A stretch of 53,960 nucleotides of DNA from Hydrogenovibrio sp. (GTDB lineage Bacteria; Pseudomonadota; Gammaproteobacteria; Thiomicrospirales; Thiomicrospiraceae): NCBI GenBank assembly GCA_015484555.1, contig WFMZ01000045.1:1-53960 (forward strand). The letters run 5' to 3'. The notes below the pieces were generated by a model. The model was not told where the DNA came from. It did not search any database and saw only the letters and a program-made list of their open reading frames with translations. The stretch's first letter is position 1, and each line of letters begins with the position of its first letter. Shown here one piece after another: positions 5,238-9,260 of this stretch. The position numbers were made by a program, and so were the translations under genes.

Positions 5238-6059
5238 TTAACTAAGAGGAGATAGAATATTTTGCGCCAATAATGCTTCTAAAACCTGTTCGGAAAAGCC
5301 TTGCAAAGACTCCACTGGCTCACCCATTTGTTCTGCCATTTCACTTAGCACAACCCAGAGCGTTTTATCTTCAGCATTCATAATGGCATTTAATAGCTCG
5401 TATAAAATAGGCGATAGCGCCATAAATTGCACCGCGTCATCATCATCTCGGTAAACCAGTAAAGTGGTTACCCAGTCAGGTTTATCCAGGTTCATAGAAT
5501 CCACATCAATGCGATGCACAGGCCATTCGTAAGCTAAGGGCCAGGCAACGGGCGAGAGCTCATAAATCTGTTGCCAATCTAATGTTAACCCTATCGGATT
5601 CAAAGGGCCTTCGGCTTCGTCTATCCCTACGGCTAGTTCTACCCACTCATAATGTGCCAGTTCTAATAGATAGGCAGGATCACTGTCTAAAGGGGTAAAT
5701 TCTGACTGACAAAAGCTTAAAAACTCCTGACCTAGCTCATGAAATAAAGGCGTTTTAGAACTGTGTTTTTGCAGATACTCACGGGTTATTTCATGCCAGC
5801 GTTCATCCCCAACAATGCTCTTCAAAACAGGAAATAAATTAGAAAAGAAGTCGAACAAGTTGTTATAAAACAAGCTTGAATAGGCTTCTAACCGCCTTTC
5901 TTCAATAGGCAAGCTGACCACCCCTGGCGATTTTAAGGGTTGGAAGTGATTATTTTCAGGGTCTCGAATATGTTTTGACAAAGCATACTGTAAGTTTTGA
6001 AAAGCTAAGTATTTCGACGCTGTGTTTTGTTCGGGTTGTACTATTGGGTTACTGTCCAT
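5238..6059 (-). CDS. hvfC: HvfC/BufC-type RiPP maturation partner (DUF2063)
   Basis: A 273-residue partner protein of the MNIO enzyme. In this family it is thought to bind the precursor peptide and present it to the iron enzyme. The DUF2063 hallmark EERRLEAYSSLFYNN followed by FPVLKSIVGDE is present at about residues 53-85. The ATG at 6059 overlaps the end of hvfB by 11 bases, implying translational coupling. An upstream TTG at 6101 is a less likely start. Residues 43-49 (KSPGVVS) are encoded by a copy of the interspersed repeat described elsewhere, just before the conserved block. It is the last gene of the operon, and no clear terminator follows. Confidence 0.88.
   Translation of the reverse strand: MDSNPIVQPEQNTASKYLAFQNLQYALSKHIRDPENNHFQPLKSPGVVSLPIEERRLEAYSSLFYNNLFDFFSNLFPVLKSIVGDERWHEITREYLQKHSSKTPLFHELGQEFLSFCQSEFTPLDSDPAYLLELAHYEWVELAVGIDEAEGPLNPIGLTLDWQQIYELSPVAWPLAYEWPVHRIDVDSMNLDKPDWVTTLLVYRDDDDAVQFMALSPILYELLNAIMNAEDKTLWVVLSEMAEQMGEPVESLQGFSEQVLEALLAQNILSPLS
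5916..5936 (-). repeat. Interspersed repeat copy inside hvfC
   Basis: On the minus strand it reads TTAAAATCGCCAGGGGTGGTC. This matches the intergenic repeat core with four A residues in place of five. It lies in frame in hvfC and encodes KSPGVV. Confidence 0.8.
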
Positions 6060-6885
6060 ATCGAGCCTGCCATTTTTGCTGTGCTTGACGAATTTGTTCA
6101 ACTTCTTCCATCAGCACTTCCATAGGGGGAATATTAAAATCCCTTTCTAGCAAGGTAGGCTGTAGGCCATGCGTACAATACGTTTTATCGAGCAAATCCC
6201 ACACTTGTGGTTTAACATCTTGACCGTGAGTGTCTATTTTTAAATCGTCCGCTTCATCAAAGTGCCCTGCCATGTGCAGATACATCATGCGTTCGGTTGG
6301 CATAGCCTTCATAAAGGATTCTGCATTATATTGGTGATTAATACTATTTACATAGGTGTTATTCACATCAAACAACAGCCCACAATCGGCTTCGGACACC
6401 ACGGCATTTATAAACTCAGCTTCCGTTAATTCATTGGTTAACAGGGCATAATAAGACACATTCTCCATGCCAATAGGGCGTTCTAAAATGTCTTGTACTT
6501 GCTTGATTCGGTCGGCCACATAATGCACGGCTTCTTCGGTAAAAGGAATGGGCATCAAGTCATATAAATGCCCTGTATCCCCACAATAACTTAGGTGTTC
6601 GGTATAGGCCTTAACCTCATGAAAATCAAAAAACGTTTTCATCTCTTTCAGGTAGTTGACATCTAAAGGGGAAGGCCCGCCAATATCCAGCGATAAGCCG
6701 TGGCAAACCAAAGGATAACGTTCGGACAGAGTGCGAAGCTCACGGCCCAAGCGGCCGCCAAAATGAAGCCAGTTTTCGGGTGCGACTTCTAAAAAATCTA
6801 TTTCAAAATCTGGGTTGGTGATGATGGCTTCAAAAAATTCTCTTTTTAAGCTTAACCCCACACCAGAAACGCATTGGTTCATCAT
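6049..6885 (-). CDS. hvfB: HvfB/BufB-type MNIO peptide maturase (DUF692)
   Basis: A multinuclear non-heme iron-dependent oxidase of the DUF692 family, 278 residues, TIM-barrel fold. Members oxidise cysteines of EGKCG-type or related precursors to copper-binding heterocycles (oxazolone/thioamide or thiooxazole). Family blocks are visible: DFLEVAPENW (30-39), CHGLSLDIGG (61-70), YTEHLSY (94-100), GMENVSYY (139-146), LLFDVNN (170-176), YLHMAGH (202-208), DTHGQ (218-222) and LLERD (245-249). These supply the conserved His, Glu and Asp iron ligands. The start ATG at 6885 overlaps the hvfX stop as ATGA, and the 3' end overlaps hvfC. Function is assigned from family knowledge plus the adjacent precursor gene. 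Confidence 0.93.
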   Translation of the reverse strand: MMNQCVSGVGLSLKREFFEAIITNPDFEIDFLEVAPENWLHFGGRLGRELRTLSERYPLVCHGLSLDIGGPSPLDVNYLKEMKTFFDFHEVKAYTEHLSYCGDTGHLYDLMPIPFTEEAVHYVADRIKQVQDILERPIGMENVSYYALLTNELTEAEFINAVVSEADCGLLFDVNNTYVNSINHQYNAESFMKAMPTERMMYLHMAGHFDEADDLKIDTHGQDVKPQVWDLLDKTYCTHGLQPTLLERDFNIPPMEVLMEEVEQIRQAQQKWQARYGQ

Positions 6886-7487
6886 AGTTCACTACCTGGT
6901 TTCATATAATGTTTTCTTATAAAGTAATCAACACTGACGTACTTCCCGCCGCCTAAAAATAACAAGGCAACCAACATCAGTAAATAAGTTACCGCCCATT
7001 CTACGCCATTATTGCTCATCACGAAATGCCCATGTTCCGTCAACAAAGTATAGTCGCCTTGTGTTTGTAGTAATTCTTTTGCGGTGTGAAGCCTTTCTAA
7101 AGCCGCTTCAGCTGTTGCAGAAGCCCACGGAGACTGTAAGTCATGTACGGCTTGCCAACCATTATGCCAGTGAACCTGGGTAATGGCGACCAACATAGTA
7201 AAGATAAGCGGTATTGAAATCCAACGTGTACCTAGTCCGAATATTAACAGCACAGCCCCGCCTACTTCAGCAGCCGTTGCTAAAAAAGCCAGTAATTCAG
7301 GAAAGGGAAGCCCTAGTCCCCATTCTTTATTGCCAAACCAATTCACCACACCTTCAAAACCATTCACTTTATTCATGCCTGCCACCCAAAATACAGGGGC
7401 GAGATAAAGCCTTAGCCCTAAAGAGGCAATAAAGTTAAATGACTGCACCGAATCCATCATTAACTGCAATGTACGTAAAAGGTTCAT
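6882..7487 (-). CDS. hvfX: DoxX-family membrane protein of the copper-RiPP operon (HvfX-like)
   Basis: A 201-residue integral membrane protein of the DoxX family. Hydrophobic spans are visible around residues 20-40, 60-85, 90-105 and 165-180, with a motif-like LAPVFWVAGMNKVNGF near the first span. DoxX proteins regularly accompany MNIO copper-RiPP operons; their role (copper or electron handling, or transport) is unsettled. A good AAGGT ribosome site precedes the ATG at 7487. Its stop overlaps the hvfB start. It lies downstream of a terminator-like hairpin that separates it from the precursor gene. Confidence 0.85.
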   Translation of the reverse strand: MNLLRTLQLMMDSVQSFNFIASLGLRLYLAPVFWVAGMNKVNGFEGVVNWFGNKEWGLGLPFPELLAFLATAAEVGGAVLLIFGLGTRWISIPLIFTMLVAITQVHWHNGWQAVHDLQSPWASATAEAALERLHTAKELLQTQGDYTLLTEHGHFVMSNNGVEWAVTYLLMLVALLFLGGGKYVSVDYFIRKHYMKPGSEL

Positions 7488-7519
7488 AGTCAGTACCTTC
7501 TTTGTTAATTTTTAAGGAT

Positions 7520-7543
7520 AAAAAAAGAGGCTTAAAGCCCCTT
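7520..7543 (-). terminator. Terminator/attenuator between precursor and maturase genes
   Basis: Read on the minus strand: AGGGGC, a five-base loop TTTAA, GCCTCT with one G-U pair, then seven T residues. It sits between the hvfA stop (7570) and the hvfX start (7487). Partial termination here would give more precursor transcript than maturase transcript. Confidence 0.7.
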
Positions 7544-7569
7544 CATTTAAAATAAAAATGGGGGTTGAA

Positions 7570-7977
7570 TTACTTATTCATACCACCACACTTTCCTTCC
7601 ATTTTCTTGCTAGATTCTTTTTTCATTGATCCGCCACACTTACCTTCCATCTTGCCAGATCCTTTCATTGATCCGCCACACTTACCTTCCATCTTGCCAG
7701 ATCCTTTCATTGATCCGCCACACTTGCCTTCCATCTTTTTCGCAGATTCTTTTTTCATAGAACCTCCACACTTACCTTCCATCTTTTTCGCAGATTCTTT
7801 TTTCATAGAACCTCCACACTTACCTTCACCACATTTCCCTTCCATGGCTACTTGCTGATACCCAGCATCCATTTTCTTAAAACCAAAAGCAGTTTCAGCA
7901 ACTGCACTGCCGGATACGGTTGCGACTGCGACTGCGCCAGCCATTTTTAAAAAGTTTCTTCTCGATTGTTTAGCCAT
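7570..7977 (-). CDS. hvfA: Copper-binding RiPP precursor with seven EGKCG repeats and a Tat-type signal
   Basis: A 135-residue precursor of the bufferin/oxazolin (HvfA) type. Residues 1-27 form a signal peptide with a textbook twin-arginine motif, SRRNFLK (5-11), a hydrophobic core and a likely AVA-ETA cleavage site at 27/28. The mature region is lysine- and glycine-rich and contains seven EGKCG units. Its only cysteines (49, 54, 70, 85, 100, 114, 130) all lie in these units, separated by SMKKESAKK- or SMKGSGK-type linkers. I choose the ATG at 7977 because GGAG precedes it at good spacing; the TTG at 7987-7989 in the same frame lies within that site. In related systems the cysteines are modified by HvfB/HvfC and then bind copper. 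It is followed by a terminator and the maturation genes. Confidence 0.9.
   Translation of the reverse strand: MAKQSRRNFLKMAGAVAVATVSGSAVAETAFGFKKMDAGYQQVAMEGKCGEGKCGGSMKKESAKKMEGKCGGSMKKESAKKMEGKCGGSMKGSGKMEGKCGGSMKGSGKMEGKCGGSMKKESSKKMEGKCGGMNK
7582..7842. repeat. Tandem repeat array inside hvfA
   Basis: Near-identical 48- and 42-base units (16 or 14 codons), each ending in an EGKCGG-coding block, lie head to tail and give the seven-cysteine core. The two SMKGSGK units are almost identical in DNA sequence, as are the two SMKKESAKK units. This suggests recent duplication or unequal recombination. Confidence 0.9.
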
Positions 7978-8027
7978 GGGACTCTCCAAATAATATTAAT
8001 TATTAGCTTGTTTATATTTTATATTGA

Positions 8028-8042
8028 GCCGTTTTAAACGGC
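8028..8042. promoter_or_regulatory. Perfect dyad upstream of hvfA (candidate operator)
   Basis: GCCGTTT-T-AAACGGC is a perfect 7+1+7 inverted repeat, 51 bases before the hvfA ATG, in an otherwise AT-rich leader with no T-run after it. It could be a regulator site. No ECF sigma or metal-sensor gene is present nearby to pair it with. Confidence 0.35.
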
Positions 8043-8159
8043 CATATTCGTAATCTTTTTATAATACTCTCTATATAAGACCTTTATTATTATTTTTTCT
8101 TTCATAAAAAGGTAAACTTAATTTTTTATAAACCCATTATCTTTACTTATAAACTTGAT

Positions 8160-9260
8160 TTATAGATCTCCTCCAGTAATTTCATTGTAAATTCTGCGCG
8201 CATTATTCTTAGCCGCCTGTTCAAAAACAGGACGGTCTTTATACTTAGATTGGTCTATCTTTTCTGCCTCTGCAACGTGACCACCTTCATCAGCTATTTT
8301 TTTAATGCCTTTTTGTAAATAACGGAAATAATCATAAGTTTGCTTTTTAATCGTCGCCATATCAGTTGGCGTGCCATGCCCAGGAATAACGACTGCATCT
8401 GCAGGAATTTCTGCCATCATTTTTTCAAACGATTCCATCCAGTCGAAGCTGTTAGTGTAATTAAACATGACGGGCATACGCTCATTGAAAGCTAGGTCGC
8501 CCGATAAAAATAAATTTTTACTCGGAATATAAACACTGGTTGAGGCCGGTGTATGACCTGGACCAAAATCAATTAATTCAAAACTTTCGCCATTCCCCAC
8601 ATCAATAGTCTTTCGTCCATCAAAAGTAGTAAATTTATCCGTCACATTTCGAGCTGAACTGGTAATTTCTTTACCCACTCGCTCTCCCCACTCACGCTTT
8701 TCTTTTTTAAAGGCTGCATCAAAAATATCATTCGCCTGGGTGCTGGAATAGAGGTTTTTCACCCCCACATCGACCCAATAGCTAGCGCCTAAATAAGCAT
8801 GCCCTTGGTTGTTTTCGACAACTAACCACTTCACGGGTTTATTGGTAATACGTTTAATTTGTTGGTGAGCACTGTAAGCAACGGCTGGGTTAGCACCGGC
8901 ATTAAATACAAGTACGCCTGACTTAAAAATAATAAAACTAATATTATTGTTTAACCCAAAATTGGCTGGGTTGTGCCAAATTTGACTCCCTACGATGGTG
9001 TAAACACCCTTCATCACTTTAGTGGCTTGTGGAAGCGGTAACTCTTTACCAATGTACCCATGGGCTTTAATCGTTTTTTCAACATCTTTGGCATAGGCTT
9101 CAGCCGCCTGAGCAGAGATCTCCCCGCCTGGCTGCCAAGATATTTCTTTGGCCCAGGCTTCAAACCCGGCAACATAAGGATCTTCATCTGCTTGAACGGG
9201 CGAGATAAACATGGCTGCTAATAGTGGCAATACAAAAAGTGTTTTATTTTGAACGGTCAT
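8160..9260 (-). CDS. Exported metallo-beta-lactamase-fold protein with degenerate zinc motif
   Basis: A 366-residue protein with a Sec signal (core about 7-20, likely cleavage VQA-DED near 24). ATG 9260 is preferred because GGAGG stands five bases upstream. The fold is recognisable from PVKWLVVEN (142-150), DFGPGHTPAS (231-240), FLSGDLAF (251-258) and VIPGHGTPTD (291-300), giving the late ligands His236, Asp255 and His295. Where the family has HxHxDH, this protein has ENNQGH (149-154), so three of the four residues are replaced. It may bind a single metal or be non-hydrolytic. It is on the same strand as the copper-RiPP operon, ending 182 bases upstream of hvfA, so co-function is possible but unproven. 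Confidence 0.8.
   Translation of the reverse strand: MTVQNKTLFVLPLLAAMFISPVQADEDPYVAGFEAWAKEISWQPGGEISAQAAEAYAKDVEKTIKAHGYIGKELPLPQATKVMKGVYTIVGSQIWHNPANFGLNNNISFIIFKSGVLVFNAGANPAVAYSAHQQIKRITNKPVKWLVVENNQGHAYLGASYWVDVGVKNLYSSTQANDIFDAAFKKEKREWGERVGKEITSSARNVTDKFTTFDGRKTIDVGNGESFELIDFGPGHTPASTSVYIPSKNLFLSGDLAFNERMPVMFNYTNSFDWMESFEKMMAEIPADAVVIPGHGTPTDMATIKKQTYDYFRYLQKGIKKIADEGGHVAEAEKIDQSKYKDRPVFEQAAKNNARRIYNEITGGDL

Follow-up and report, generated by a model that had tools for sequence, protein, structure and literature searches.

The window analysed here, a 53,960-nucleotide stretch from Hydrogenovibrio sp. (contig WFMZ01000045.1), contains an hvfA-type precursor gene followed on the same strand by hvfX, hvfB and hvfC (Table 1). 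The HvfA-type context assumed in the first-pass annotation was borne out, since the MNIO maturase HvfB, HvfC (scanned as 5241-6065; NF050145, 226 bits, cut-off 142) and HvfX all exceed their curated cut-offs. In two genomes, hvfA-hvfX and hvfB-hvfC lie on separate contigs (L105 and L106 versus L073 and L077).

Table 1. Positions of the hvf genes, precursor segments and regulatory elements in the window.
Feature	Position	Strand	Basis or remark
hvfC, DUF2063/RRE partner protein	5238..6059	-	ATG at 6059
hvfB, MNIO maturase	6049..6885	-	NF003818, 419 bits, cut-off 360; PF05114
hvfX, DoxX-like membrane protein	6882..7487	-	NF050144, 223 bits, cut-off 80
Terminator-like hairpin between hvfA and hvfX	7524..7544	-	9-bp stem plus T run
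hvfA-type precursor gene	7570..7977	-	ORF; 135 aa, stop codon included
Seven-unit EGKCG array, proposed modification sites	7585..7842	-
FGFKKMDAGY segment, just past the proposed cleavage site	7858..7887	-
Signal peptide, residues 1-27	7897..7977	-	Sequence; TIGR01409 match at 7897-7965
Tat motif SRRNFLK, residues 5-11	7945..7965	-	TIGR01409 and PF10518 over cut-off
Promoter-like element TGAAAGAAA-N13-GGTCT	8078..8104	-	100 nt before hvfA

Anatomy of the precursor and its gene

The precursor gene starts with an ATG at 7977, preceded by GGAG, and its product matches the HvfA-family domain NF050137 (23.4 bits, cut-off 19.5). It stays below the cut-off of the NCBIfam HvfA equivalog NF050188 (24.9 bits, cut-off 95), as does the non-Tat EGKCG precursor L008 (75.4 bits), and it gave no match at E <= 1 to PF10048 (DUF2282), the domain that defines Buf1. 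The product runs from MAKQSRRNFLKMAGAVAVATVSGSAVA through ETAFGFKKMDAGYQQVAM into the EGKCG units, and its N-terminus reads MAKQSRRNFLKM...AVA, with signal peptidase cleavage proposed between AVA (residues 25-27) and ETAF. The hydrophobic core and AVA previously noted after SRRNFLK are both present, the stretch between the motif and AVA being weakly hydrophobic. Seven EGKCG units in tandem, with all the cysteines inside them, had also been described; the number of units and the confinement of the seven cysteines stand, and the tandem arrangement applies to the first two units only, which are directly adjacent, the rest recurring every 14 or 16 residues. A DNA pattern for the EGKCG unit occurs seven times genome-wide, always within hvfA, and the reversed pattern does not occur. 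Since two of the 42-nt repeats are identical and the other copies, of 42 or 48 nt, are 62-79% alike to them, the number of repeats appears to be recent and prone to change.

An AlphaFold2 model of the precursor, calculated from a shallow alignment of eight rows, has a mean pLDDT of 48 and contains the signal helix only, with no strand, which speaks against the earlier suggestion that the peptide is exported already folded. A folded beta-helix, published for a type with 17-residue repeats in the accessible part of that literature, was considered for the window's precursor and rejected on the same model.

Hairpin-plus-T-run sites number four on both strands of 7400-8300, against 0.3 in shuffles, and the hairpin between hvfA and hvfX (-12.6 kcal/mol, z -2.7) would fit a surplus of precursor over enzyme. 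A similar hairpin follows 14 of the 27 Tat precursors compared below, the window's included, as a raw count with no shuffle control. The promoter-like element before hvfA is the single match to its pattern in the window, with none in 100 shuffles. The form GAAAnRA-N14-GGTCT precedes 19 of the 27 Tat precursors at 47-104 nt, at one fixed spacing and against a mean of 0.014 in single-letter shuffles, and 5 of the 100 others. This bipartite arrangement resembles an ECF sigma promoter, and the window's element is possibly an ECF sigma site; a near match, GAAAGTT-N14-GGTCT, was found by eye upstream of the Buf1 gene of the same genome. A metallo-beta-lactamase-fold gene (8160-9260) lies upstream on the same strand and was not found at the loci of 40 relatives.

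The Tat-type signal and its distribution

The reading of SRRNFLK as a Tat motif was confirmed by two models, TIGR01409 TAT_signal (22.8 bits, cut-off 16.7) and Pfam TAT_signal PF10518 (24.9 bits, cut-off 22.7). A Tat-type signal on the precursor is thus well supported as a prediction, in the place where the HvfA/EGKCG group would have a Sec-type signal. When the genome was scanned with TIGR01409 at E <= 0.01, five matches were obtained, the precursor being the best and the other four being SoxY, a sulfide dehydrogenase flavoprotein, a molybdopterin oxidoreductase and a Rieske protein; TatC is also present in the host (223.6 bits).

The set of relatives comprised 93 genomes, including the window's own, 57 of the same family of sulfur-oxidising bacteria (Thiomicrospiraceae, members of which include Thiomicrorhabdus, Hydrogenovibrio and Thiomicrospira) and 35 of the same class. 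Of 369 class genomes in a wider draw, 80 had the pattern EGKCGEGKCG; a phylum draw of 398 genomes gave 31, every one of them from the window's own class. The three draws pooled gave 120 genomes with the pattern, 111 of them classified and nine unclassified owing to a contig edge or an unfetched sequence, in a sampling that is blind to the type of signal. The first-pass annotation had proposed counting RR motifs across EGKCG precursors, and in this sample an RR.FL signal was found in 18 of 19 family genomes and in 0 of 92 classified genomes outside the family. Likewise, 27 of the 28 family genomes with an hvfC over cut-off carry an RR.FL precursor. The sole family exception in both samples is G023, whose non-Tat precursor (L023) has a signal of quite different sequence with no decayed RR. 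The Tat signal on EGKCG precursors is, therefore, a lineage trait, restricted to the family within the sample, and nearly all hvf clusters found in the family carry a Tat-signal precursor. Tat-type EGKCG precursors outside the family were sought among named genomes with the Tat N-terminus, which gave at least ten loci; of those listed, seven belong to the family and three are unrelated Tat proteins, so that rare cases outside the family may exist.

For comparison, 27 RR.FL precursors were set against 100 others from 94 genomes and 49 families counting that of G023, or 48 without it. The 129 distinct precursors included 21 of Tat type, 96 without RR.FL, six whose N-terminus was lost at a contig edge and six further regex matches (L123, L184, L186, L187, L206 and L208) in which the RR lies upstream of the likely start; the 100 consist of the 96 and six more, minus L125 and one frame of L128 that offer no usable start. 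Two precursors, L190 (MSRRSTLKP) and L151 (ARRNKLKP, in a disturbed frame), have the RR and lack the F of the motif, and no RR.FL appeared upstream of L151 and L185 on reading further 5'. The contig of L125 begins with adapter-like sequence, presumably a sequencing adapter, followed by the precursor, and its start is probably an assembly artefact.

TIGR01409 matched 27/27 RR.FL precursors and Pfam TAT_signal 22/27, and each matched 0/100 of the others. Because RR.FL was the criterion by which the 27 were chosen, their matches amount to a confirmation of the motif; the independent test is the absence of matches among the 100. The two arginines are encoded by five different codon pairs across the 27 Tat precursors. 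Tat signals typically have a less hydrophobic core, and the best 14-residue hydrophobicity is 1.44 in the Tat precursors (n=27) versus 1.87 in the others (n=100), with a p value of 1.5e-11 that should be taken as indicative, since related sequences are not independent. The earlier proposal that signal and repeats together mark a distinct branch holds for the signal, whereas the repeat number and cysteine placement are ordinary: exactly seven units occur in 15/100 non-Tat and 2/27 Tat precursors, and every cysteine lies within EGKCG in 56/100 and 17/27, respectively. Past the cleavage site, F-x6-8-GY (FGFKKMDAGY in the window) is found in 25/27 Tat and 88/100 other precursors; it persists despite the change of signal and is a candidate recognition element for HvfC/HvfB.

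Three Tat-type precursors (L071, L074 and L080) have repeats that are mostly QGNCG or similar instead of EGKCG, so the residue preceding the cysteine is shifted. EF-hand calcium-binding motifs occur in 16/100 non-Tat EGKCG precursors (the A3 set), a type described in the available portion of PMC12452194.

The other MNIO cluster of the same genome (contig 63; L104, 5253-5576) encodes the DUF2282 bufferin Buf1, MDNSKLEARRMFLKSAVVVV..., whose signal contains ARRMFLK. With the NCBIfam Tat model this protein fell short of E 0.05, so that its link to Tat is one of motif evidence. Among 78 DUF2282 precursors, a part of the matches, L104 alone has RR.FL in its signal, while two from genus g49 have KR.FL (L238, MTDKRTFLK; L254, MTDKRAFLK). 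The other two DUF2282 precursors of the family have Sec-like signals, a term used here for signals without a Tat model match.

Origin of the signal and possible routes of export

In the HvfB tree (53 rows), the 27 rows of the family form one clade with a support of 100/100, and G023 falls inside it among Tat rows, beside G014 (94/84) and on a starred four-row branch. The tree as found requires two changes of signal type, and it is best fitted by a single gain of the Tat signal that G023 later lost; one change suffices in 1% of bootstrap trees. Forcing the 26 Tat rows into a single clade costs 2.06 log units, and a single gain with G023 outside the Tat rows is not rejected (AU p 0.418). The replacement of Sec by Tat probably took place a single time, at an early stage of the family to which Hydrogenovibrio and Thiomicrorhabdus belong. 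Co-evolution of HvfC with the Tat signal was also considered, with little effect seen: at matched HvfB identity, HvfC identity is 0.360 in Tat/non-Tat pairs versus 0.383 in non-Tat pairs, so HvfC has diverged little beyond expectation and gives little sign of having changed together with the signal.

The anatomy of the precursor, its gene neighbours, the conserved Tat motif and its restriction to the family within the sample lead us to a reading that we consider probable, namely that the window encodes an EGKCG copper-binding RiPP precursor whose Sec signal was replaced by a Tat signal, with modification by HvfBC in the cytoplasm and subsequent export through Tat. In the cytoplasm, HvfC and HvfB would convert the Lys-Cys sites of the precursor into 5-thiooxazoles, while the Tat signal would hold the peptide off the Sec route until modification is complete. 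TatABC would then move the modified peptide to the periplasm, where signal peptidase would cut after AVA and the mature peptide could buffer Cu(I). A folded cargo, the usual reason for Tat use, is not evident, because the predicted model of the precursor is disordered, and the little co-evolution of HvfC and the non-Tat G023 among Tat rows also count against this reading, as do the failed preliminary attempts to use Tat in lanthipeptide display (PMC5686179).

The c-region of the window's precursor (SGSAVA) has no basic residue and hence no Sec-avoidance signal, a further point against Tat-dependent export. This favours the alternative that the signal is Tat-like yet promiscuous, with export by Sec and an RR motif of little effect, as do the small cargo, predicted to be unstructured, and the existence of one non-Tat member in the family. 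Nevertheless, the retention of RR.FL in all but one of the 28 family genomes, with changing codons, and a hydrophobicity below that of the non-Tat homologues make Sec export improbable in our judgement. The RRxFLK motif might instead serve for docking of HvfC and not for export. According to PMC13419390, HvfA is modified less when its signal is removed, and the Sec signal is described as acting at the same time as the leader; part of the enzyme recognition may, by analogy, reside in the signal here as well. However, the F-x6-8-GY common to both types sits outside the RR motif and the Tat model matches none of the 100 other EGKCG-kind precursors, so that docking as the role of the motif seems very improbable.

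Tat could also be used as a neutral habit of a lineage that exports its sulfur-oxidation proteins by this route, the swap having brought no timing advantage. SoxY and the sulfide dehydrogenase among the other TAT_signal matches are such proteins, the molybdopterin oxidoreductase may be a third, and the small HvfC co-evolution signal agrees with this possibility. The conservation of RR.FL argues for the use of Tat and for no particular benefit, and nothing separates a neutral habit from a timing role; all in all, we regard the habit as rather unlikely, though clearly less so than Sec export. Beyond the favoured reading of Tat export after cytoplasmic modification, Tat may have been recruited more than once to solve the RiPP timing problem, so that modification or copper binding precedes export, the ARRMFLK in the unrelated Buf1 bufferin of the same genome being the second case, an idea that we advance tentatively and with more doubt than belief. 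If true, nature would be using a trick that lanthipeptide engineers speculated about and failed to make work: in the portion of PMC5686179 (2017, on lanthipeptide display) that was accessible, Tat was speculated to prolong the contact between precursor and enzyme, and preliminary attempts failed.

Comparison with known systems

The words 'Tat', 'twin' and 'twin-arginine' do not occur in the main text of PMC12452194, PMC12668002 (journal version PMC13097082), PMC12538549, PMC13419390 and PMC12636315. A literature search joining bufferin or RiPP with Tat or twin-arginine, and the genera with RiPP, returned no report of a Tat signal on such a precursor, subscription papers lying mostly outside its reach, and the accessible MNIO/RiPP literature yielded no description of a natural RiPP as a Tat substrate. 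Besides PMC5686179, two papers that bring together twin-arginine export and RiPP precursor peptides mention Tat in different contexts. The landscape paper, in its available sections, predicted signals by SignalP 6, cited as predicting all five types, and reports Sec and lipoprotein signals. Premature export of Sec-signal RiPP precursors is raised as a problem in PMC12452194, which calls for some mechanism against it, and a natural branch with Tat in place of Sec and the same enzymes makes this problem testable.

HvfA/oxazolin, FonA (fontiphorin), MmrA and NedA likewise have EGKCG repeats, an adjacent MNIO with a DUF2063 partner and often a DoxX protein, and the F...GY segment is shared by the window's precursor and the non-Tat EGKCG precursors. 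In this group, the EGKCG cysteines are converted into 5-thiooxazoles, according to the portion of PMC12668002 available. The Sec signals that the first-pass annotation named for HvfA/bufferin-type precursors are indeed those published, some being of lipoprotein type, in the accessible descriptions: Sec signals are given there for HvfA and the EGKCG/oxazolin group, and a lipoprotein signal for NedA, whereas the window's branch has a Tat signal. The bufferins Buf1 (DUF2282) and Buf2 are also signal-bearing copper RiPPs, made by an MNIO together with a DUF2063 partner. Sec-dependent export is reported for them, whereas the window's precursor is of Tat type and has no DUF2282 match.

SoxY and Rieske proteins, as classical Tat substrates, have the same n-region motif as the window's precursor. 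They are folded or cofactor proteins, whereas the window's precursor is a short repeat peptide that is predicted to be disordered.
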